Shown in pieces: positions 27,239-37,509 of a stretch of DNA of 64,000 nt. Source of the stretch: Streptomyces albidoflavus (lineage in GTDB: Bacteria; Actinomycetota; Actinomycetes; Streptomycetales; Streptomycetaceae); assembly GCF_000719955.1 (NCBI RefSeq), contig NZ_JOII01000022.1, positions 92,716 to 156,715 of the forward strand, written 5' to 3'. Numbering within the stretch: position 1 is the stretch's first letter; each line of letters opens with the position of its first letter. Under the pieces are notes generated by a model. The model had not been told where the DNA came from, did not search any database, and saw nothing but the letters and a program-made list of their open reading frames with translations. The position numbers and the translations under genes are program-made.

Positions 27239-30004
27239 GTGAGGATCACCCGCGCGACCCGCCTGACGACGGCCCCGCTCCTCGCGGCGGCCCTCCTGAC
27301 CCCCGCTCATCCCGCGGCGGCCGCCCCCGGACCCGGCCCGTCCGAGCCCGCCGCCCGGCCCCGGTGCGCCCCCTCCCCCGGCTGGACCCCGACGGCCGGC
27401 AGCCGCGCGGAGGCCACGCCCCACGCGTACGTCGGCAACGGCTACCTCGCCACGCGTGTCCCCGCCGCCGGTGCCGGATTCCGGCCACCGGGCGAGGGCG
27501 GCGAGCCGGAGGTGAGGACGGGCTGGCCCCTCTTCACCCCGCGCTACGACGGCGCGTTCGTCTCCGGCCTCTACGCCCGGGGCCCGGAGAACACCACGGG
27601 CCGCCAGGCGGTCGCGGCCCTCCCGAACTGGACCGGCCTGGAGGTCACGGCGGGCGGCGAGACCTACGGCCCCGCCTCCCGCGTCACCGGCTACCGCCAG
27701 ACCCTCCTCCTCCGCTGCGGCCTGGTCCGCACCGCCCTCACCTGGACCGGCTCCGACGGCCGCCGCACCGACCTGGTGTACGAGGTCCTCGCCGACCGGA
27801 ACGCCCCGCACGGAGCGGCCGTCCGGCTGCGGATCACGCCGCACTGGTCGGGGACGGCCACCGTCACCGACCGGATCGACGGCCGGGCCGCGCGCCGCGT
27901 GACACAGACCGGGGGCGGCGCGGAACCCGGCGCGCCCGGCGCCATGGCGGTCTCCTTCCGCACCGAGGGCACCGGGGTGAAGGGCGCCGTCGCCTCGGTG
28001 CTGCGCACGCCCGACGGCACCGCCCGCCCCGCCGACGGGGCCCGCTCGCTGGGCGCCACCCAGTCCGCCTCCTTCCCGGTCCGCTCCGGCCGCACCTACG
28101 AGGCCGTCAAGTACGTCGGCGTGGACACCTCGCTGACCTCACGCGACCCGCGCGCCGGCGCCGTCTCCGCCGCCCGGGCCGGGGCGCGGCGGGGGTGGCG
28201 GGCCCTGTACGAGGCGCACGCCGGCGCCTGGCGCACCCTGTGGGAGTCCGGCGCCGACCTGGACACCGCCCCCGCCGACCCGCCCGGCCGGGGCGCGGCC
28301 CCCCAGCCGACCGCCCGCCAGGAGGAACTGCGGCTCTGGCTCCGCTCGGCCCGCTACGGCCTGCTCTCCTCCACCCGCCCCGGCGCCCGCGACTCCCTCG
28401 GCCCCACCGGCCTGACCAGCGACAACTACGCCGGGATGATCTTCTGGGACGCCGAGACCTGGATGTTCCCCTCCCTGCTCGCCACCGACCCCGACCTCGC
28501 CAGAACCGTCCTGGATTACCGGGTGCGCACCTCCCCCGCCGCCCGCGACAACGCCCGCAAACTCGGCTTCGAGGGCCTCTTCTTCCCCTGGACCAGCGCC
28601 TCCTCGGGCGACCTGTGGGGCGAGTGCCAGAGCTGGAACCCGCCGCACTGCGTCACCCAGAACCACCTCCAGGGCGACATCGCGCTCGCCGCCTGGCAGT
28701 ACTGGCTCGCCACCGGCGACCGGGGCTGGCTGCGCCGCGACGGGGAGCCGCTGCTGCGCGGCCTCGCGGAGTTCTGGGCCTCCCGGGTCACCGCCAACCC
28801 CGACGGCAGCTACTCGGTGAAGGGCGTCGCCGGCCCCGACGAGTACAGCAACGGCGTGGACGACGGCGTCTACACCAACGCCGTGGCCGCCACCGCCCTG
28901 CGCCACGCGGCGAGCGCCGCCGAGGAGACCGGCGCCAACGCCCCTCCCGAGTGGCGCCGCATCGCCGACGGCCTGCGCATCCCCTACGACGCCGGCCGCA
29001 AGGTCTTCCTCCAGTACGACGGCTACGAGGGCTCCCGCATCAAGCAGGCCGACGCGGTCCTCCTCGCCTACCCCCTGGACTGGCCCATGCCGGACGGCGC
29101 GGCCGCCGCCACCCTCGACTACTACGCCGCCCGCACCGACCCGGACGGGCCCGCCATGACCGACTCGGTCCACTCGGTGATCGCGGCCGGCGCCGGCGAG
29201 CCGGGCTGCGCCGCCTACACCTACCTGGAGCGCTCGGTCCGGCCCTTCACCCGCGGCCCGTACGCCCTCTTCGCCGAGGCACGGGGCGACAAGGCGGGGG
29301 CCGACGACCCGCTCTCCGGCACCCCGGCCGAGGACTTCCTCACCGGCAAGGGCGGGTTCCTCCAGTCCTTCACGCACGGCCTGACCGGGATGCGGCTGCG
29401 CGCGGCCGACCGGCTCCACCTCGACCCGGTGCTTCCGCCGCAGCTGGCGCGGGGCGCCGACGGGGCCGAGTCGGGCGGGGTGGCCGTGCGCGGGCTGCGA
29501 TGGCGCGGGCGCGCCTTCGACGTGGTGATCGGTCCCGGGACCACCGAGGTGCGGCTCACCTCGGGTGCGCCCTTCACGGTCGAGACCCCCGAAGGGCGCT
29601 CCGTCCTCTCCCCCGGTACGCCTCTCACCCTCAAGACCCGGCGCCCTGACCTGGCTCCCACCTCGGATCCGGCGCGCTGCGCCCCCGTGCGGGCCTCCTC
29701 CGAGGAGCCGGGCCTCTACGCGGAGGCGGCCGTCGACGGGGCCGGGGCCACCGTCTGGTCGCCTGCCGCCGACGCCACCAGGGCGACCCTCACCGCCGAA
29801 CTGGGCTCGCCCACGCGGGTCGCCTCGGTCACCCCGGACTGGGCGGCCGAGCCCGCCTCGTACCAGGTGGAGGTCTCGGCCGATGGCCGTAGTTGGCAGG
29901 GGGTTGGCACTGGGGTGCCGGCGCGTCAGGTGCGGCTGACCTTACGTAAGGAGCCGGGTGGGGAGCTGCCCGCGCTGCGGGAGTTGGGGGTGCGGGTGGA
30001 GTAG
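27239..30004 (+). CDS. secreted glycoside hydrolase family 65 protein (acid-trehalase-like)
   Basis: 921 aa from GTG 27239, chosen because it places a signal peptide (TTAPLLAAALLTPAHPAAAA) at the N-terminus; the RBS is weak. The GH65 N-terminal beta-domain begins around YVGNGYLATRVP. The (alpha/alpha)6 barrel has GMIFWDAETWMFPSLL and the catalytic-region motif VAGPDEYSNGVDDGVYTNA, with a probable general-acid Glu in PDEY. A C-terminal beta-sandwich resembling an F5/8-type or CBM32 module (about 800-921, ASYQVEVSADGRSW) follows. An extracellular trehalase or another alpha-glucoside hydrolase is likely. Phosphorolysis is less likely for a secreted enzyme. Confidence 0.87.
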   Translation: MRITRATRLTTAPLLAAALLTPAHPAAAAPGPGPSEPAARPRCAPSPGWTPTAGSRAEATPHAYVGNGYLATRVPAAGAGFRPPGEGGEPEVRTGWPLFTPRYDGAFVSGLYARGPENTTGRQAVAALPNWTGLEVTAGGETYGPASRVTGYRQTLLLRCGLVRTALTWTGSDGRRTDLVYEVLADRNAPHGAAVRLRITPHWSGTATVTDRIDGRAARRVTQTGGGAEPGAPGAMAVSFRTEGTGVKGAVASVLRTPDGTARPADGARSLGATQSASFPVRSGRTYEAVKYVGVDTSLTSRDPRAGAVSAARAGARRGWRALYEAHAGAWRTLWESGADLDTAPADPPGRGAAPQPTARQEELRLWLRSARYGLLSSTRPGARDSLGPTGLTSDNYAGMIFWDAETWMFPSLLATDPDLARTVLDYRVRTSPAARDNARKLGFEGLFFPWTSASSGDLWGECQSWNPPHCVTQNHLQGDIALAAWQYWLATGDRGWLRRDGEPLLRGLAEFWASRVTANPDGSYSVKGVAGPDEYSNGVDDGVYTNAVAATALRHAASAAEETGANAPPEWRRIADGLRIPYDAGRKVFLQYDGYEGSRIKQADAVLLAYPLDWPMPDGAAAATLDYYAARTDPDGPAMTDSVHSVIAAGAGEPGCAAYTYLERSVRPFTRGPYALFAEARGDKAGADDPLSGTPAEDFLTGKGGFLQSFTHGLTGMRLRAADRLHLDPVLPPQLARGADGAESGGVAVRGLRWRGRAFDVVIGPGTTEVRLTSGAPFTVETPEGRSVLSPGTPLTLKTRRPDLAPTSDPARCAPVRASSEEPGLYAEAAVDGAGATVWSPAADATRATLTAELGSPTRVASVTPDWAAEPASYQVEVSADGRSWQGVGTGVPARQVRLTLRKEPGGELPALRELGVRVE

Positions 30005-30061
30005 GGGCCTTCGGCCGGGCTGTCCTTGTGGCTGGGCTTCGTTCTGGCCGTACCGGTTCAA

Positions 30062-30087
30062 GATGGCCTCAAACGCCGGCCGGGCTG
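30062..30087 (+). repeat. single copy of the interspersed repeat
   Basis: GATGGCCTCAAACGCCGGCC followed by GGGCTG, in the forward orientation, matches 17615-17640. It lies just beyond the GH65 stop, inside the aberrant tail of the DUF402 frame. Confidence 0.85.
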
Positions 30088-30146
30088 GGGGTTCGCGGTG
30101 CGTTCGCCGTCTGGGGCGGGCGGGGCCGCACCGGGGTACCTCCTCA

Positions 30147-30199
30147 CAAACTGCATGGTGCGGGGTCAGTCGCTTCAAGGCGGCCGTGTGTGCAGTTTG
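30147..30199. repeat. 9-bp inverted repeat around 35 nt in the aberrant DUF402 tail
   Basis: CAAACTGCA (30147-30155) and TGCAGTTTG (30191-30199) are perfect complements. The arms are AT-richer than the context. It could be the scar of a small mobile element or a terminator for the DUF402 gene. Confidence 0.45.
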
Positions 30200-30739
30200 C
30201 TGCGGGGGCACCCCGGTCTCGGCCTCCTCGGCGGTCCAGAAGCGGGGGTGGCCGGTCCTGACCGCGAAGGACTCCTCGTCCTTCCAGCGCCAGTGGCGGT
30301 CTGGGCTCACCGTCAGGTCCAGCTCCAGGTCGTCCACGACGATGTCCGTGCCCTCCTCGTTGACCGCGCCCTGCTCGTCGTACCGCGTGCGCCGTTCGAA
30401 GTTGACGTACCAGCCGCCGAAAGTGCCGTCGCGGGAGAAGAACCACCAGACCGCGTACCCGGCGCCGGGCGGCTGGAGGATGAGCGCGCTCCCGTTGCGC
30501 CAGCGGTCGGGGCGCAACGGGAAGCCGCCGGGCGGCCACCGCTCGGGGTCCAGGTCCCGCAGGTGCGCCCGTCGCCCGCCCGGCAACCGGGCCCGCCACC
30601 CGGGCGAACCCGCCGCAAGCCAGAGCCACACCCCTTCCGGCCCGCGCCCGGCCACCCGCACCGGGCACCCCACGCTGACCTGCCCACCGATCCGCAGCCA
30701 CCACCACAGCACCCGGCCCCAGCGGTCCATCCGGTCCAT

Positions 30740-31094
30740 CCGCAAGCTCCCCTCCCGCACCGATCACTCGTGCGGCCAAGCATGGCGGACGCCACTGACA
30801 ATCCGTAGACCATGCCTCACTCAGGGTGATGCGCGGTCGGCTCTGGCGGGTGTTTCTCTTGGCCATCGACGGAGCCCGGACGTGGGTTGGGTCCCGGACG
30901 CGTTCTCCGGGCCGCCCCCGCACAGACCGGGGATGCAGCCGCTCTCCGGAGCTGGAGACCCCGAAGCCGACCGCGCGCTGCGGACCTTAGGTCCGGGTAC
31001 TGACAACGGGGAGGTGCGGAGGGCGTGTTCGGATGTTCCGCGCCGGTCGGGGAGGATCGGGGCCGGTGAGGAGTGGAGAGCTGGAGGTTGCCTG
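30740..31094. other. 355-nt gap upstream of SUKH-like gene
   Basis: No gene is supported. It contains the divergent leaders of the DUF402 and SUKH-like genes. Local composition is less GC-biased around 30800-30880. No clear operator or terminator was seen. Confidence 0.4.
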
Positions 31095-31610
31095 ATGGTG
31101 GAAGAGTCGTGGCTGCCCTATGACGGCGTCGCCCTCGCGCGTCTGGTGCCGGCGGGTGGCGAGGTGGTGGACGCGCTGGTCGGGCGGGGGTTGCCGGTGG
31201 ACTGCTGCCGGGTGTTCGTGCGGGATCGTGGGCGGGAGTTGGAGGTTCGGGAGCTTCCGGCGGGGCGGGCTGTGTTTCTCGGGGCGTTCGAGGACGGGGT
31301 GAACTCGTACTGGCTGGTTCTGGGGAGTGGGGCGGTCTGGATGGTGCGCGGGTACGACGACGGGGGCGGGGAGCAGGGGTACGAGCTGGTCAACTCGTCG
31401 GTTCTCGGACTGCAAAGGGTGCTGGCGGTGTGGGAGGAGTTCGTGCGGTCGGGGTGGAGTGATGAGGACGACGGTTACGAGGAGTACGTCGAGGGGGTGG
31501 TCGGGCGGGCGCGGGACGGTGATCCGGAGGCGTTCGGGGACGAGGAGGCGTGGTGGGCGCGGCATTTCGAGGAGGTGGAGTTGGGGGTGCTGGTGCCCGA
31601 GGGGGCGTAG
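31095..31610 (+). CDS. SUKH-like immunity protein (orphan)
   Basis: 171 aa from ATG 31095, with GGAGG 7 nt upstream. The pattern AVFLGAFEDGVNSYWLVLGS, then GAVWMVRGYDDGGGEQGYEL, VNSSVLGLQRVLAVWEEFV and an acidic C-terminus (WARHFEEVELGVL) resembles the SUKH-4-type immunity fold. These proteins neutralise polymorphic toxins. Codon use is less GC3-biased than its neighbours (many TTG, GTT and GGG codons), consistent with horizontal gain. No toxin gene is adjacent. It may be an orphan immunity gene, or the assignment may be wrong, since the family is very divergent. Confidence 0.6.
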   Translation: MVEESWLPYDGVALARLVPAGGEVVDALVGRGLPVDCCRVFVRDRGRELEVRELPAGRAVFLGAFEDGVNSYWLVLGSGAVWMVRGYDDGGGEQGYELVNSSVLGLQRVLAVWEEFVRSGWSDEDDGYEEYVEGVVGRARDGDPEAFGDEEAWWARHFEEVELGVLVPEGA

Positions 31611-31687: not shown

Positions 31688-32881
31688 GTGAGCGAAGACC
31701 CGAACGGCGCCGCCTCCGCGGCTCCCGCACTCCGGCAGCGGCTGGCCCAGGTGCGGGGCGTCTCCGTACCGCCCCGGCCGCTCGACGCCCGTGCCCTGGC
31801 GGCGCTCGCCGCCAATCCGGGGTGCCACCGGCGTGCCCTGCTCGACGGTGCGGGGGTGGACAAGCCCAGACTCGCCGAGGCGCTGGGGGTGCCTTCGGGG
31901 TTCGGGCAGTCGCAGTTCGCGTTCATGCGCGGGCACGCCTTCGAGGCGCGGGTGAAGGCCGACGGGGGCGCTGAGCTGCTGCGGCTCGCCCATGCCTGCC
32001 TCGGCGGCGGGCCCGCGCCGGACGGCGGTGGCGAGGTGCCCCGCCTCGCGGCCCCCGGGCAGGCCGAGCGGGTCGCCCGGACCGAGGAGGCGCTGCGGGA
32101 GGCGGCCGGGCGGCGGGGTGGCTGGACGCTGCTGGACCACCCGATGCTCGCCCTGGAGGTGGCCGGGTCGGACGCCTTCCTGGAGCCGGACGCGATCGTG
32201 GTTCATCCCGACGGCGGCTGGTCGGTGGTGGAGATCAAGTCCTTCCCGATGCTGGACGGTTCGGCGGACGCCGCCAAGGTCGGGGCGGCCGCCCGGCAGG
32301 CCGCGGTGTACGTGCTGGCGCTGGAGGAGGCCGCCGGCCGGCTCGCGGAGCGGCTGGGCGGGACTCCGGCCGTCCGCCACCAGGTGCTGCTGGTCTGTCC
32401 CAAGGACTTCTCCAACCTCCCCACCGGCGCCGCCGTCGACGTGCGCAAGCAGCGGGCGGTGACGCGGCGCCAGCTCTCCCGGCTCACCCGGGTCGAGGAC
32501 GTGGCCGCCGCGCTGCCGCCCGGCGTCTGCTTCGACCCCGACCGGCCCCCGGACGAACTCCTGCGCGCCGTCGAGTCGGTCCCCGCCTCCTACGCCCCGG
32601 AGTGCCTCTCCGCCTGTGAACTGGCCTTCCACTGCCGTGAGCGGGCCCGCGCGGCGGGTGACGTGACCGCGCTGGGCCGCTCGGTCCGGGGTGAGCTGGG
32701 CGGGCTGACCTCGGTCGAGGAGGTCCTGACGGCCGCCGCCTCCCCGGACGGGGCCGGGGACGGGGGCGACCCGGGTACGGACGCGACGGTGGCGGCGCTG
32801 CGGAGGGCCGCCCGGCTGCGCGCCGAGGCGCTGGCCACCGCGGGCGCCGGGGCGCCGGATCGGGGGCCGGGATGCCGCTGA
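31688..32881 (+). CDS. PD-(D/E)XK (RecB/Cas4-like) nuclease with probable Fe-S cluster cysteines
   Basis: 397 aa from GTG 31688, first gene of a three-gene operon. The nuclease core is visible: MRGHAFE (residues 80-86), Asp168 in LEPDAIVVHPDGG, Glu182-x-Lys184 in VVEIKSF and Gln204 in RQAAVYVLAL. This is the D...ExK...Q pattern of RecB-type metal-dependent nucleases. Cys46 (NPGCHRR) lies before the core, and Cys306, Cys310 and Cys316 (ECLSACELAFHC) come after it. One cysteine before and three after is the layout that binds a 4Fe-4S cluster in AddB, Cas4 and Dna2, though the spacing here is C-x3-C-x5-C. It overlaps the next gene by 10 nt. The role is inferred, not shown. Confidence 0.75.
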   Translation: MSEDPNGAASAAPALRQRLAQVRGVSVPPRPLDARALAALAANPGCHRRALLDGAGVDKPRLAEALGVPSGFGQSQFAFMRGHAFEARVKADGGAELLRLAHACLGGGPAPDGGGEVPRLAAPGQAERVARTEEALREAAGRRGGWTLLDHPMLALEVAGSDAFLEPDAIVVHPDGGWSVVEIKSFPMLDGSADAAKVGAAARQAAVYVLALEEAAGRLAERLGGTPAVRHQVLLVCPKDFSNLPTGAAVDVRKQRAVTRRQLSRLTRVEDVAAALPPGVCFDPDRPPDELLRAVESVPASYAPECLSACELAFHCRERARAAGDVTALGRSVRGELGGLTSVEEVLTAAASPDGAGDGGDPGTDATVAALRRAARLRAEALATAGAGAPDRGPGCR

Positions 32882-34551
32882 TCAGCACCCTCGCCCGGCT
32901 GGAGGCGGTGCGTACGGGCCGGGCGCAGCCCGCCGCGACCGTGCTCCACCGCCACCTCTCCGCCCGCCCGCTGGTCCTCGTCCCGCTCACCACGGCCGGT
33001 GAGGCCGGAGCCCCGCTCGGCGCCCTCGTCGGCACCGACCGGGACGCGCCCCGCCTGCTGGTGGTCCCGCAACCGGCCGACCGGGAGCTGCGCTTCGCCT
33101 TCCTCGCCCGCCTCGCCTCGGTGGTCCTGCCGCACATCGAGGAGTACGCGGCCCAGGTGGAGCCCGCCGAGCGCACCGAGGCCGACCCGGAGACGGGCAA
33201 GCGCGTCAAGGTCGTCACCGAGCTGTGCGCCGACGCCCCGCAGCTCGTCGTGCCGGGGCGGGCCGGGATCGAGCTGGTGCGGCTGCTGGGGCGGGCCAAC
33301 CGCTTCCGCCGCACCGCCGAGGAGGACCCGGAGGGCCCGTATCCGGCGCCGGAGCAGGTGCCGCTGCTGGGCCGCTGGTTGACCCATCTCGGCGAGCGGG
33401 CCCGGGTGCCGGGCTCCTCGATGCTGGTCGCCATGACGGACCTGCTGGCCCGGCACTGGGCCACCGGCCAGAGCGCGCTGGAGGACCAGCACCTCGGGGC
33501 GCTGCTCGCCTGGATCGACCCGCCGTCCGGGGACGACGGCGACCGGGCCGCGCGCCACGCCGAGCTGGCCCGGGACGAGGAGGGCCAGTTGCTCTGCCCG
33601 CCCGCCGGTCCCGCCACCGACCCCGCCTTCGACAACAAGCTGCTGGCGCCCGCCGTCGAGCGGTACGACCGGGCCCGCCGCGCCCTGGCCGACGCGCAGG
33701 ACGGCGAGAGCGCCGACCGGCTGCTGGTCGCGACCACGGCGGCCGAGCGGGAGCTGCGCGCCCTGGTGGAGAGCCGCACCCGGCCGACCTGGGACGCGGT
33801 CTGGCGCGGCATCGACCTGCTGCGGGAGCTGCCCGAGGGCGCCCACGTCACCGACCGCTGGACCCGCGACCGCTGGTCCTTCACCGCGCACCGCGACCGG
33901 CTGGCCGCCGGGGAGCCGCCGCAGCCGCGCCGCGACGACGCGGTGACCGCCGCCCAGAAGCTCGCCACGCGCGAGCGGGAGCAGGCCCGGCTCGACGCCC
34001 AGGAGGCGCTGGACGATCCGCTGGTGATGGCCGGGCGGCGGCTGGCCGGGGAGGCGTTCACCGCCGAGGTGCTGGACGTACGGATGACGTACACCGAGAG
34101 CAAGCGGCCCAGTCCGCGTCCGGTGCTCACGGTCCGCACGGAGGACGCCCCGCACGCGGCGCCCGGCGCCAAGGTCTACCGCGAGCTGGACGGCCGCCCG
34201 CAGTCCGCCGAGGTGCTGGCGCCTGAGGAGGCGGCGGAGGCCCACCCGGAGGCCGGGGCGGAGTGCGCCGCCGGGGACGGCACCGGGGACGGCGCCGGGC
34301 CCGGGGAGCGGCTGCTCCTGCTGCGGGTGCTGGACCGGATGGGCCGGGGCCGCGAGCCGGAGGAGGGGTCGGTCCCGGAGAAGGGTGACCGGATCTGCTG
34401 GACCCTCTTCGAGCACGACCAGCGGGGCGGCCCCAAGCTGCCCGACCCCGAGGAGACACCGTGGACCCACGGCGGCCCGCCGGAGCCACCGGGCGCCCTG
34501 CCCGGCCCAGCGACCGCCCCCGACCCGGTGACCCCGGAGGACCTGCTGTGA
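32872..34551 (+). CDS. protein of unknown function, middle gene of nuclease-helicase operon
   Basis: 559 aa from ATG 32872, overlapping the nuclease gene by 10 nt. Recognisable families are lacking. Regions seen: an N-terminal domain with many Leu/Val strands (LVLVPLTTAGEAG, RLLVVPQPADRELRFAFLAR); a central part with GQSALEDQHLGALLAWIDPP; a helical, possibly coiled-coil segment around QKLATREREQARLDAQEAL (about residues 362-382); and a beta-rich part (FTAEVLDVRMTYTESKRPSP, LTVRTED, RLLLLRVLDRMGRG) that could be an OB-like or nucleic-acid-binding module. The C-terminus is Pro-rich. Stoichiometric coupling suggests it is a structural or DNA-binding subunit of the same complex. Confidence 0.8.
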   Translation: MPLISTLARLEAVRTGRAQPAATVLHRHLSARPLVLVPLTTAGEAGAPLGALVGTDRDAPRLLVVPQPADRELRFAFLARLASVVLPHIEEYAAQVEPAERTEADPETGKRVKVVTELCADAPQLVVPGRAGIELVRLLGRANRFRRTAEEDPEGPYPAPEQVPLLGRWLTHLGERARVPGSSMLVAMTDLLARHWATGQSALEDQHLGALLAWIDPPSGDDGDRAARHAELARDEEGQLLCPPAGPATDPAFDNKLLAPAVERYDRARRALADAQDGESADRLLVATTAAERELRALVESRTRPTWDAVWRGIDLLRELPEGAHVTDRWTRDRWSFTAHRDRLAAGEPPQPRRDDAVTAAQKLATREREQARLDAQEALDDPLVMAGRRLAGEAFTAEVLDVRMTYTESKRPSPRPVLTVRTEDAPHAAPGAKVYRELDGRPQSAEVLAPEEAAEAHPEAGAECAAGDGTGDGAGPGERLLLLRVLDRMGRGREPEEGSVPEKGDRICWTLFEHDQRGGPKLPDPEETPWTHGGPPEPPGALPGPATAPDPVTPEDLL

Positions 34552-34670
34552 CACGCCGGCCGGCGGAGACGGGGGCGGGGGCGGGGCCGGGCCAGGACGC
34601 CCCGGACGGAACGACAGGGACGACGGGAACGACAGGTACGACGAGCGTGACGAGGAAGAGCGGCGGATGA
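34548..34670 (+). other. low-complexity coupling segment between operon genes 2 and 3
   Basis: A frame of 40 codons opens with GTG overlapping the previous TGA (GTGA) and closes with TGA overlapping the next ATG (ATGA). It encodes a Gly/Thr-rich peptide containing GTTGTTGTTGTT from a tandem ACGACAGG-like repeat near 34610-34642. It may be a translated coupling leader rather than a functional peptide. The repeat could vary in length between strains. Confidence 0.35.
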
Positions 34671-36043
34671 CGGCGGTGGACGAGGCGGCGGGTGCGGGAC
34701 CGGGCGGCCGGGAGCTGTCCCCGGGCGAACAGGCGACCCTGGCCACCGAGGAGATCCTGGCGCAGACGCTGCACGGCACGGCCCGTGGGGTCGTGGTGGA
34801 CTCGCCGCCGGGTGCCGGGAAGTCGACGCTGGTGGTGCGGGCGGCCCGGGAACTGGCCGCGGCGGGGCGCCCGTTGATGATCATCGCGCAGACCAACGCG
34901 CAGGTGGACGACCTGGTGCTGCGGCTGGCGGAGAAGGACCCCGAACTGCCGGTGGGGCGGCTGCACAGCAGCGACCGGGACGCCTACGACAAGGCCCTCG
35001 ACCCACTGCCCTCGGTGCGGACCTCCACCAAGGTGAAGGAGCTGGCGGGGCTGGACGTCGTGGTCTCCACGGCGGCGAAGTGGGCACACGTCAAGGACGT
35101 CGAGCCGTGGCGGCACGCCATCGTGGACGAGGCGTACCAGATGCGCTCCGACGCGCTGCTGGCCGTCGCCGGGCTCTTCGAGCGGGCGCTGTTCGTGGGC
35201 GACCCGGGGCAGCTCGACCCGTTCGCCCTGGTCGGCGCCGAGCAGTGGGCCGGGCTCTCCTACGATCCCTCGGCGAGCGCGGTGGCGACGCTGCTGGCCC
35301 ACAATCCGGAGCTGCCCCAGTTGCGGCTGCCGGTCTCCTGGCGGCTGCCCGCGTCGGCGGCCCCGCTGGTCTCCGACGCGTTCTACCCGTTCACACCGTT
35401 CCGCAGCGGCACCGGGCCCGGGGACCGCGGCCTCAGCTTCCAGGTGGCCTCGGCCGGGACGCCGTACGACGAGGTGATCGACGAGGCGGCGCGCAGCGGC
35501 TGGGGGCTGCTGGAGCTGCCCGCGCGGCACACGCCCCGGACCGACCCGGAGGCGGTGCGGGCGGTGGCCATGGTGGTGCGGCGGCTCCTCGACCGGGAGG
35601 GGGCGGCCGTCTCGGAGACCGGGCCGGAGCCGGTGCCGCTCGGGGCGCGGCGGATCGCCGTGGGGACCGCCCACCGGGACCAGGCCGCGGCGGTGCGGGC
35701 CGAACTGGCGGCGCTCGGGGTCGAGGGGGTGGCGGTGGACACCGCCAACCGGCTCCAGGGGCGGGAGTTCGATGTGACCGTGGTGCTGCATCCGCTGTCC
35801 GGGCGGCCGGACGCCACCGCCTTCCATCTGGAGACCGGGCGGTTGTGCGTGCTGGCCTCGCGGCACCGGCACGCGTGCGTGGTGGTGTGCCGGGAGGGGG
35901 TGCAGGAGGTGCTGGACGCGCATCCCTCCACCGAGCCGGTGATGCTGGGGGTGGGGGTGCGGTTCCCTGACGGGTGGGAGGCCCATCACTCCGTGCTCGG
36001 AGTGCTGGGCGGGCACCGGGTTCGGCTGCCGGCCGGGGGGTGA
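34667..36043 (+). CDS. superfamily 1 DNA/RNA helicase (UPF1/Dna2-like AAA ATPase)
   Basis: 458 aa from ATG 34667 with GAGGAAG upstream. Helicase motifs in order: I DSPPGAGKST (45-54), Ia IIAQTNAQVDDL (72-83), II VDEAYQ (153-158), III FVGDPGQLDPF (176-186), a conserved SWRLP (224-228), V VDTANRLQGREFDVTVV (357-373) and VI LASRHRHACVVV (396-407). These place it in SF1 near UPF1/Dna2. It is compact, without the large insertions of Rep/UvrD. Lying directly after a RecB-like Fe-S nuclease gene, it could supply ATP-driven unwinding for a split Dna2-like activity. The repeat-containing 3' gap after it carries no gene. Confidence 0.88.
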   Translation: MTAVDEAAGAGPGGRELSPGEQATLATEEILAQTLHGTARGVVVDSPPGAGKSTLVVRAARELAAAGRPLMIIAQTNAQVDDLVLRLAEKDPELPVGRLHSSDRDAYDKALDPLPSVRTSTKVKELAGLDVVVSTAAKWAHVKDVEPWRHAIVDEAYQMRSDALLAVAGLFERALFVGDPGQLDPFALVGAEQWAGLSYDPSASAVATLLAHNPELPQLRLPVSWRLPASAAPLVSDAFYPFTPFRSGTGPGDRGLSFQVASAGTPYDEVIDEAARSGWGLLELPARHTPRTDPEAVRAVAMVVRRLLDREGAAVSETGPEPVPLGARRIAVGTAHRDQAAAVRAELAALGVEGVAVDTANRLQGREFDVTVVLHPLSGRPDATAFHLETGRLCVLASRHRHACVVVCREGVQEVLDAHPSTEPVMLGVGVRFPDGWEAHHSVLGVLGGHRVRLPAGG

Positions 36044-36162: not shown

Positions 36163-36312
36163 GATTTCGGCCGGGCTGGATGTGTGACGCAGCGAGCGGA
36201 TCGGTGCTGGGGGACGGCTCGGTAAGTGATCAGTGGTGGGGATGGACGGTCCGGTGGGTGGGGACAATGGAAGGTGGTTCTGGGGCGTGGGTCCTGGGTT
36301 TGGAGGCATGTG

Positions 36313-36657
36313 ATGGCGGAGTCCGAGCGGGACGCGCCGAGGCTGCGGCCTGCGCCGTTGTTGTTCGAGCCGGCGGAGGCGGTGGGGGACCCGGAGCACT
36401 TCTTCGATCTGGAGTCGATGGAGGACCCGGGGGCCCTGCTGGACCGGGCGACCGAGCTGACGGTGGCGTTCCGGGCGGCGGCCGACCGGTCGGTGGAGTT
36501 CCAGGCGATGGCGGCGGCGCAGCTCGCGGACCCGCGGCGGTTCGACCGGCTGAGCGCGGAGGCGATCGGGGAGCGGGCGCAGTGGACCGAGGCGTACGCG
36601 CAGAAGATGATCGAGTTCGGGCGTGACCTGCTGCGGGCGCGGCCCGCCGGGGGCTGA
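36313..36657 (+). CDS. small conserved hypothetical protein
   Basis: 114 aa from ATG 36313 with GGAGG 9 nt upstream. The sequence LRPAPLLFEPAEAVGDPEHF, FDLESMEDPGALLDRATELT and a helical C-terminus suggest a soluble acidic all-alpha protein. I recall the same pattern in many streptomycetes without an assigned function. There is no membrane segment. Confidence 0.75.
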   Translation: MAESERDAPRLRPAPLLFEPAEAVGDPEHFFDLESMEDPGALLDRATELTVAFRAAADRSVEFQAMAAAQLADPRRFDRLSAEAIGERAQWTEAYAQKMIEFGRDLLRARPAGG

Positions 36658-36688: not shown

Positions 36689-36780
36689 TGAGGGGGCAAG
36701 GTACCTCATGGATGTCGCCGATGTCCCGCCTTTCGGCAACTCTGTGATACCGCTTGCTCACCACCGGTAGATCTGTCGAC

Positions 36781-37509
36781 ATGAGCAGCCGACATGTCAC
36801 CGCCACCACGACCGCCCGCCACCGCCTCTCCGCCCCCGGGGGCCGGGTCTCCGGAATCCAGGACGGCCAGGACCAGTCGGCCCGCGTGACGGCGGAGGGA
36901 GCCGCGTGGCTCGCCTCGGCCGGGGCGTACCCGGGGGCGGCGGGGCCGGCGGTGCTGCGGTGCGGGATCACCTTCGACGTGGTGAACGTCCCGCCCGTCT
37001 TCGGCCACCGGATACTGGACCGCCTCTGGGAGGAGGGTCCGGGTTCGGGCCCGGCGGCGGTGCAGCGGGGCCGGTTACTCCTCTTCGCGGCGCCGGGCAC
37101 GGCCCAGCGACTGCCCGCCCTGCTGCGCTGGGAGGAGTGCGGGAGCACCGTCCCGCCCCTGCTCTGCCACGGGGCGGGCGACGCGGTGACGGTGCCCGGA
37201 CCCGACCCGGCGGGGGCGCCCGGGGCTCCCGTACCGGCGCTGCGGGCTGCGGTGGGGCATCCGCGGGACGGGGAGCGGGGGCGGGAGCACGCGGCGGGGG
37301 CGGGTGGCCCCGGCGAGTGCTCTGAGCTGCGGGGAGCCGGCGCCGGGGACCGGTGGCTGGTGGCGCCGGGGGCGCGGTACCCGTGGCTGCCGGGGGCGGA
37401 CGTGCTGCGCTGGGCGTGCGTGCGGGCGGCGCGCGGTACGCGCCCGGTATCGATTTTTCCTCCGGTCCGTCCGGGTGCTAAGGTCTACGACGTCAGCAGG
37501 CGCCGCTAG
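36781..37509 (+). CDS. prim/pol-N-terminal-like protein
   Basis: 242 aa from ATG 36781. It resembles the stand-alone 'bifunctional DNA primase/polymerase N-terminal' proteins of Streptomyces: GAAWLASAGAYPGAAGPAVL, FDVVNVPPVFGHRILDRLW, GRLLLFAAPGTAQRLPALLR and DRWLVAPGARYPWLPGADVL. I do not see the acidic triad of active AEP primases, so catalysis is doubtful. Oddly, the stop codon (37507-37509) lies inside the tRNA-Lys gene that begins at 37500, so the last codons share sequence with the tRNA acceptor stem. Confidence 0.75.
   Translation: MSSRHVTATTTARHRLSAPGGRVSGIQDGQDQSARVTAEGAAWLASAGAYPGAAGPAVLRCGITFDVVNVPPVFGHRILDRLWEEGPGSGPAAVQRGRLLLFAAPGTAQRLPALLRWEECGSTVPPLLCHGAGDAVTVPGPDPAGAPGAPVPALRAAVGHPRDGERGREHAAGAGGPGECSELRGAGAGDRWLVAPGARYPWLPGADVLRWACVRAARGTRPVSIFPPVRPGAKVYDVSRRR

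Follow-up and report, generated by a model that had tools for sequence, protein, structure and literature searches.

The 64,000-nucleotide stretch of the Streptomyces albidoflavus genome analysed here (hereafter the window; assembly GCF_000719955.1, contig NZ_JOII01000022.1, positions 92,716 to 156,715 of the forward strand) contains three closely spaced genes encoding a predicted nuclease, a protein of no known family, and a helicase. We refer to these genes as the trio:

31688..32881, + strand: nuclease gene, GTG start at 31688, 397 amino acids; iron-sulfur (Fe-S)-type PD-(D/E)XK subunit
32872..34551, + strand: middle gene, ATG start at 32872, 559 amino acids; no known family
34667..36043, + strand: helicase gene, ATG start at 34667, 458 amino acids; UPF1/Dna2-type superfamily 1 core

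A first-pass annotation of the window had described a three-gene operon with overlap between genes, and its coordinates proved right: the nuclease and middle genes overlap by 10 base pairs (bp), and the three are co-directional in every one of the 89 loci with complete detection (91 loci examined), which rules out chance as the source of the arrangement. Taking the start of the profile envelope as the start of the middle gene, the two genes overlap in 78 of the 90 loci that hold both, by 10 bp in 55 and by 4 bp in 19. The best protein relatives, at 97-98% identity, belong to the S. albidoflavus / S. koyangensis group, and homologues of the nuclease and middle proteins are labelled hypothetical protein in nearly all of the named matches listed.

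Conservation in the nuclease was assessed over 91 aligned proteins (the window's and those of loci L036-L125; 90 distinct sequences), and the following features are invariant:

31823..31825, + strand: Cys46, first cysteine of a predicted Fe-S cluster (91/91)
31943..31945, + strand: Glu86 in an RGxxFE motif (91/91)
32189..32239, + strand: Asp168 and Glu182-x-Lys184, predicted catalytic (91/91 each)
32297..32311, + strand: Gln204-x3-Tyr208 motif (91/91 each)
32603..32635, + strand: Cys306-x3-Cys310-x5-Cys316, the other predicted Fe-S ligands (91/91 each)

The RGxxFE motif is presumably motif I of the RecB family. Every residue that the first-pass annotation had singled out (D168, E182, K184, Q204, C46, C306, C310 and C316) is thus universal in this set, and the combination of a catalytic D, E-x-K and Q with four domain-spanning cysteines, three of them near the C end, marks the protein as a predicted iron-staple PD-(D/E)XK nuclease. 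The predicted structure (mean predicted local distance difference test score 89.6) has a Cas4/AddB/Dna2-type fold: at E<=0.001, Foldseek returns four matches in the PDB (MGME1, ACE1/Cas4), whose TM-scores over the whole chain are low, and weaker Foldseek rows and VIA-align add Cas4, RecE, EXO5, AddAB, AdnAB and Dna2. Absence of a D-ExK core or Fe-S fold, which the first-pass annotation had named as fatal to its proposal, did not occur. Cas4, ACE1 and AddB share with the trio nuclease a PD-(D/E)XK core bearing four domain-spanning cysteines, but their partners differ. By sequence, Pfam yields PDDEXK_1 alone, below its cut-off; a PDB search with the nuclease profile gave nothing believable; no system protein in PADLOC-DB matched; and no nuclease relative was found in phage records and viral contigs, a search limited to the nuclease and not made for the middle and helicase proteins. 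We disregarded two matches to designed proteins (E 2.3e-8 and 5.7e-6), which span just 31 helical residues.

The helicase carries the hallmarks of a superfamily 1 motor, nearly all of them shared across 89 aligned proteins:

34802..34825, + strand: Walker A SPPGAGKS, residues 46-53 (P47, P48, G49, G51 and K52 in 89/89; S46 in 87, A50 in 87 and S53 in 85 of 89)
35126..35143, + strand: Walker B region DEAYQM, residues 154-159 (D154, E155, A156, Q158 and M159 each in 88/89; Y157 in 86/89)

Consistent with its initial description as UPF1/Dna2-like, the protein exceeds the Pfam cut-offs for AAA_11, AAA_12, AAA_30 and Viral_helicase1, and a profile built from four divergent helicases finds Dna2 as its best PDB match (2.8e-13), followed by UPF1 and SMUBP-2 (2e-8). 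These motifs and matches identify it, at the level of sequence, as a superfamily 1B (SF1B) motor of UPF1/Dna2 type. In UPF1-type helicases such as UPF1 and Sen1, a 1B barrel and stalk precede Walker A. Because Walker A starts at residue 46 of the trio helicase, there is little room before the first RecA domain (RecA1), and the barrel and stalk seem to be missing from this 458-amino-acid protein. Matches in PADLOC-DB are partial, reaching 24.6 bits, and we attribute both a PLuB match (NF040671, 55 bits against a cut-off of 999) and matches to MkoA and MkoC to shared similarity in the helicase core rather than to membership.

The predicted structure of the middle protein suggests where the missing part of the motor may lie. 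Two of its regions resemble known domains, with modest scores:

32962..33837, + strand: middle residues 31-322, resembling the RNase-H-like 3'-5' exonuclease domain of family-B polymerases
34033..34413, + strand: middle residues 388-514, a beta barrel resembling the 1B region of Sen1

Judged against the catalytic residues of family-B polymerase exonucleases, the RNase-H-like domain probably lacks its catalytic acids. The first-pass annotation had assigned the middle protein to no recognised family, and this stands: it has no Pfam match above cut-off and no match in NCBIfam or PADLOC, RNase_H_2 is absent from its Pfam results at E<=1, Foldseek of the model against PDB and viral libraries gives nothing at E<=0.001, and a PDB search with the middle profile gives nothing believable. 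A Caa3_CtaG match in Pfam (E 0.092) was taken as noise, and a search of plasmids with the divergent middle protein of genome G165 returned no match.

The three genes also travel together. We examined two genome samples, 198 genomes drawn over the phylum and 296 of the class. In the phylum sample, the trio is present in 8 of 8 Streptomyces genomes, including the window's own, in G050, and, as a divergent version, in G165. In the class sample, strong matches to the nuclease, middle and helicase proteins coincide in the same 48 of 296 genomes; the outcome that would have told against a common unit, a middle gene absent from most relatives, was thus not seen. Six further class genomes have weaker helicase matches alone (down to E 1e-20), except that G357 also has a weak nuclease match. 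Among Streptomyces, the trio is present in 26 of the 27 other genomes listed and in the window's own, G415 being the one without it. Judged by the places listed, the distance between the middle and helicase genes is at most 1.5 kilobases (kb) in 45 of the 48 genomes with a trio; in G333 a contig break falls between the two genes, and in G278 and G377, which both group with Micromonospora in a tree, the helicase is 36 and 49 kb away. Since these two genomes keep the helicase at a distance, the gene set is retained even when unlinked. Micromonospora locus L049 also has no adjacent helicase, and is one of the exceptions among 80 named loci, along with L069 and L077 (contig ends), L046 (a broken middle frame) and L122 (a partial helicase match).

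Fused and reduced forms follow the same order. In G357 and G392, nuclease-middle fusion proteins of 896 or 924 amino acids precede a 501-amino-acid helicase. The fused family aligns colinearly with the nuclease and middle profiles over 480 columns (probability 87.9, E 3.2e-6), an alignment carried mainly by the nuclease (alone E 1.1e-6), the middle by itself giving a weak match (E 0.037). A Euzebya plasmid has a middle-like gene (23.5-24 bits; E 1e-6 in a larger scan) immediately ahead of a helicase. The nuclease profile found nothing on the 15-kb stretches of this plasmid and a comparable Rhodococcus plasmid, though it is also weak on fused nucleases (7.5 bits at L217). The middle and helicase genes thus seem to stay paired after loss of the nuclease, which is what a middle protein that completes the motor would lead one to expect. 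Pairs of this kind, with no nuclease detected, lie on actinobacterial plasmids at L261:5575-8134 and L263:5496-8194, one beside a VWA-like gene and a PemK/MazF toxin and the other beside a cytosine methyltransferase; for a third plasmid-borne helicase match (L262), the profile detected no middle-like gene.

Among characterised enzymes, the nearest is Bad, a bacterial DNA2-like helicase-nuclease of Geobacillus stearothermophilus that consists of a single chain. According to its published description (PMC7430649), it has an Fe-S cluster, a 5'-3' motor, a preference for 5' overhangs with 5'-overhang-directed nuclease activity, and an unexplained central domain. Its Fe-S nuclease, central domain and SF1B helicase come in the same order as the products of the trio. 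In the same text, the Bad gene of Geobacilli adjoins a Type III-like methylase, which is paralleled by neighbours of some trio relatives, and its authors suggested that it is part of a novel restriction enzyme; eukaryotic Dna2 is described there as a single chain with no central domain of this kind (PMC7430649). Bad and DNA2 are each one polypeptide, whereas the trio comprises three separate genes.

A second parallel is the TM0106 family (TIGR03491), which has the same nuclease - RNase-H-like - UPF1-type helicase order in a single chain. All four proteins of this type with a helicase that we tested (L231, L233, L234 and L235) exceed cut-offs for RNase_H_2, AAA_11 and AAA_12 in one chain, and PDDEXK_1 reaches E<=0.01 in three of them. 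The TM0106 and trio helicases are clearly homologous (hhalign E 1.1e-26), while TM0106-type proteins differ in their single chain and in a recognisable RNase_H_2 domain with a DFE motif, which is possibly relevant to the central domain of Bad. The trio nuclease and middle proteins have no significant sequence match to full-length TM0106 proteins, and TIGR03491 gives no match at E<=1 in the three window proteins and none at E<=0.001 in the window's own genome. This family exceeds its cut-off in 99 of the 296 class genomes, but in only 2 of the 48 with a trio (G050 and G430) against 97 of the other 248 (Fisher p 2e-7; p 0.008 without Streptomyces). As the genomes are related, this avoidance is only a hint that one enzyme functionally replaces the other.

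Outside the Streptomycetaceae, most trios have a companion gene. This gene of ~280 codons, which we call X, immediately precedes that of the nuclease in 25 of the 104 loci that were scanned: at 19 of the 24 non-Streptomycetaceae trio loci (the five without it being L036, L046, L049, L219 and L221) and at all six second or plasmid copies of the trio. X-bearing genera include Nocardia, Actinomadura, Amycolatopsis, Planosporangium, Thermomonospora and Nonomuraea. The protein has no match in Pfam (four copies searched), PADLOC (three) or NCBIfam (one), and its N-terminal stretch looks coiled-coil-like by eye. X was not found at the scanned Streptomycetaceae main copies or fused loci, nor in the window's own genome, in a search made without a positive control. 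X-like genes also occur on large linear Streptomyces plasmids (L254:7546-11551, L255:7572-11509 and L256:7574-11429), where each follows an HU-family gene and precedes genes for ~620-710- and 180-200-amino-acid proteins of no assigned function, with a nuclease-related-domain gene nearby; this arrangement is perhaps another system that uses X.

Several relatives adjoin known defence systems. The loci considered here were picked by choice, not at random, and no control count stands behind the associations. On a plasmid of Streptomyces sp. NBC_01244 (L228), divergent SbcCD genes are followed by X, nuclease, middle, helicase, JetA, JetB, JetC and JetD, that is, a Wadjet system, with JetA and JetD confirmed; a WAC00288 plasmid (L229) has the same order up to a JetC-like gene, where the stretch ends. 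In G304, HmaA (1291 bits) and HmaB (1033 bits) come after X and the trio, all on one strand, and the trio of G380 is near-identical to that of G304. Second copies in G182 and G424 adjoin SbcCD and a ResIII/HA helicase. The G392 fusion lies in the order ZacC-like gene, 510-amino-acid protein, nuclease-middle, helicase, Type III methylase, ResIII, and that of G357 adjoins a Type IIG/ISP restriction-modification (R-M) gene. Hma, Wadjet and Type III R-M genes are co-stranded with their trio relatives in L222, L228 and L217. Close to the G165 trio are Type III Mod and Res genes, a helicase of UvrD type and a gene that by eye looks integrase-like. As annotated, the Rhodococcus plasmids pDF02 and that of AH-ZY2 carry nuclease-middle, helicase, DNA methyltransferase and DEAD/DEAH helicase genes. 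Further neighbours are HsdR and an SMC-like gene beside a smaller divergent gene, SbcCD-like by position and length, in Nocardia gamkensis (L070); a PDC-S73-like gene (451 bits) in Amycolatopsis (L110); and DarT in Nocardia xishanensis (L053). At L111 and L119, the few neighbouring proteins tested gave no defence match. The 510-amino-acid protein between the ZacC-like helicase and the fusion (L217:2307-3839) has no Pfam or PADLOC match.

The architecture of the trio is well supported by its conservation and co-occurrence, its motifs, the predicted nuclease fold, the fusions and the genomic contexts. We would place it among the DNA2-like helicase-nucleases, from which its make-up of three separate genes sets it apart. 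Probably, the trio is one ATP-dependent helicase-nuclease in which the DNA2/TM0106-type layout has been split into three subunits in domain order. The suggestion of a split Dna2-like machine in the first-pass annotation is borne out by this agreement of gene and domain order, by Dna2 as the best helicase match and by the Sen1-like barrel in the middle model, and its remark that no named system has this composition holds for Pfam, NCBIfam and PADLOC, where no trio protein has a full-length match to a PADLOC-DB system, and for the literature searched, in which we recognised no paper on this operon and which left most subscription journals outside its coverage. The gene set, carried by nearly all of the listed Streptomyces genomes and with nuclease and middle products mostly labelled hypothetical, probably forms one DNA2-type machine, and its split form suggests which part supplies what the motor lacks.

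What we infer from this architecture is that a complex forms, and what its polarity, substrate and biological role would be. In the mechanism we propose, subunit 1 would be the iron-staple PD-(D/E)XK nuclease; subunit 2 would be a scaffold comprising an RNase-H-like domain whose catalysis has probably been lost, together with long helices and the 1B barrel needed for a complete motor; and subunit 3 would supply an SF1B core of two RecA domains. As the analogy of Bad and DNA2 suggests, loading would occur at a free 5' single-stranded end or flap, the helicase and middle subunits would unwind the duplex while moving 5'-to-3', and the nuclease would cut the threaded strand during unwinding. The most likely job of such an enzyme is the unwinding and cutting of foreign or broken DNA from 5' ends. 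In relatives, target choice might fall to partners (X, methylases, SNF2/ResIII translocases or Wadjet), and the module may act as a nuclease-helicase effector against incoming DNA; the Streptomycetaceae version, a stable chromosomal gene set lacking X, could have a guard or repair role. More tentatively, we suggest that X-nuclease-middle-helicase is an undescribed effector core, independently adopted by Type III R-M-like, Hma-like and Wadjet-linked systems, that it belongs to an unwinding class of restriction enzymes as proposed for Bad, and that the Streptomyces trio is a domesticated form. The relatives lend themselves to testing the idea that the DNA2-like enzymes of bacteria belong to a new restriction class that unwinds and degrades DNA together. 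Three observations lower our confidence in the main reading of one split machine: JetD lies outside the stretch covered on the WAC00288 plasmid, PDDEXK_1 exceeds its cut-off in just one of the four TM0106-type proteins, and the middle-like match before the helicase on the Rhodococcus plasmid is the weaker one (13-14 bits; E 0.0013).

The trio could instead be a housekeeping DNA-repair enzyme of Streptomycetaceae that processes flaps, forks or replication intermediates, the defence neighbourhoods of its relatives being incidental; we regard this as a serious possibility, if not a favoured one. Its near-constant presence in Streptomyces fits such a role, as does our failure to find X in the window's own genome, with the limit given above. 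So does its descent: in a FastTree tree over 48 loci, for which the tool warns of long branches among second and plasmid copies, the main copies of the Streptomycetaceae group in a single clade of 18 rows, in which Embleya and Kitasatospora are first to branch, and downstream genes recur among the 90 other loci (a 143-amino-acid open reading frame (ORF) in 53, an SCO3374-like gene in 50, an M6 protease in 46 and GGDEF/EAL in 44). This clade and these conserved neighbours make vertical inheritance of the Streptomyces copy probable. The second copies that bear X give the impression of being mobile; in the tree, second and plasmid copies fall outside the clade, either with N. gamkensis and Thermomonospora or by themselves. 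Against a housekeeping role stand the second copies found on one strand or in one island with HmaAB, Wadjet and R-M genes, and the Streptomyces genome G415 that lacks the trio. The defence role raised in the first-pass annotation is supported, by context, for relatives and second copies and was not shown for the Streptomyces copy itself: among its neighbours tested (five proteins against Pfam, none run against PADLOC), no defence genes were seen.

Since UPF1-type helicases include RNA helicases, a complex that processes RNA or R-loops also comes into view. Matches by sequence and by barrel include Sen1 and UPF1, but Dna2 is the best helicase match, the leading nuclease matches are DNA nucleases, and in relatives the trio is partnered by DNA methylases, restriction translocases and SMC complexes, all of which make this explanation unlikely. 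An AddAB/AdnAB-like machine for double-strand-break resection, the other affinity suggested at first pass, draws on the fold matches of the nuclease to AddAB and AdnAB chains. Those enzymes have UvrD-type motors fused to the nuclease, whereas the trio has a separate nuclease and a single motor of AAA_11/AAA_12, UPF1/Dna2 type rather than two UvrD-type motors. The window's own genome also encodes PDDEXK_1 proteins elsewhere (L258-L260, contigs C27 and C22), including adjacent 1221- and 1680-amino-acid frames with PDDEXK_1 domains that are probably AdnAB; we consider the resemblance to AddAB a quite improbable guide to function and set that label aside. Least probable of all is a conserved cluster whose products do not form one machine: middle-like and helicase genes do occur without a detected nuclease, yet the frequent nuclease-middle overlap (78/90), the nuclease-middle fusions and co-retention when unlinked all speak against it.

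Around the window's trio, an ORF just upstream of the nuclease gene (29958-31610) includes a SUKH-4-like protein, of an immunity-protein family, which we rejected as a component of the system because its ORF recurs in fewer than five related loci. Two uncharacterised genes 3' of the helicase, at 36226-36657 and 36754-37509, recur in 53 and 50 loci, nearly all of them in Streptomycetaceae; the product of the second is SCO3374-like, below cut-off.

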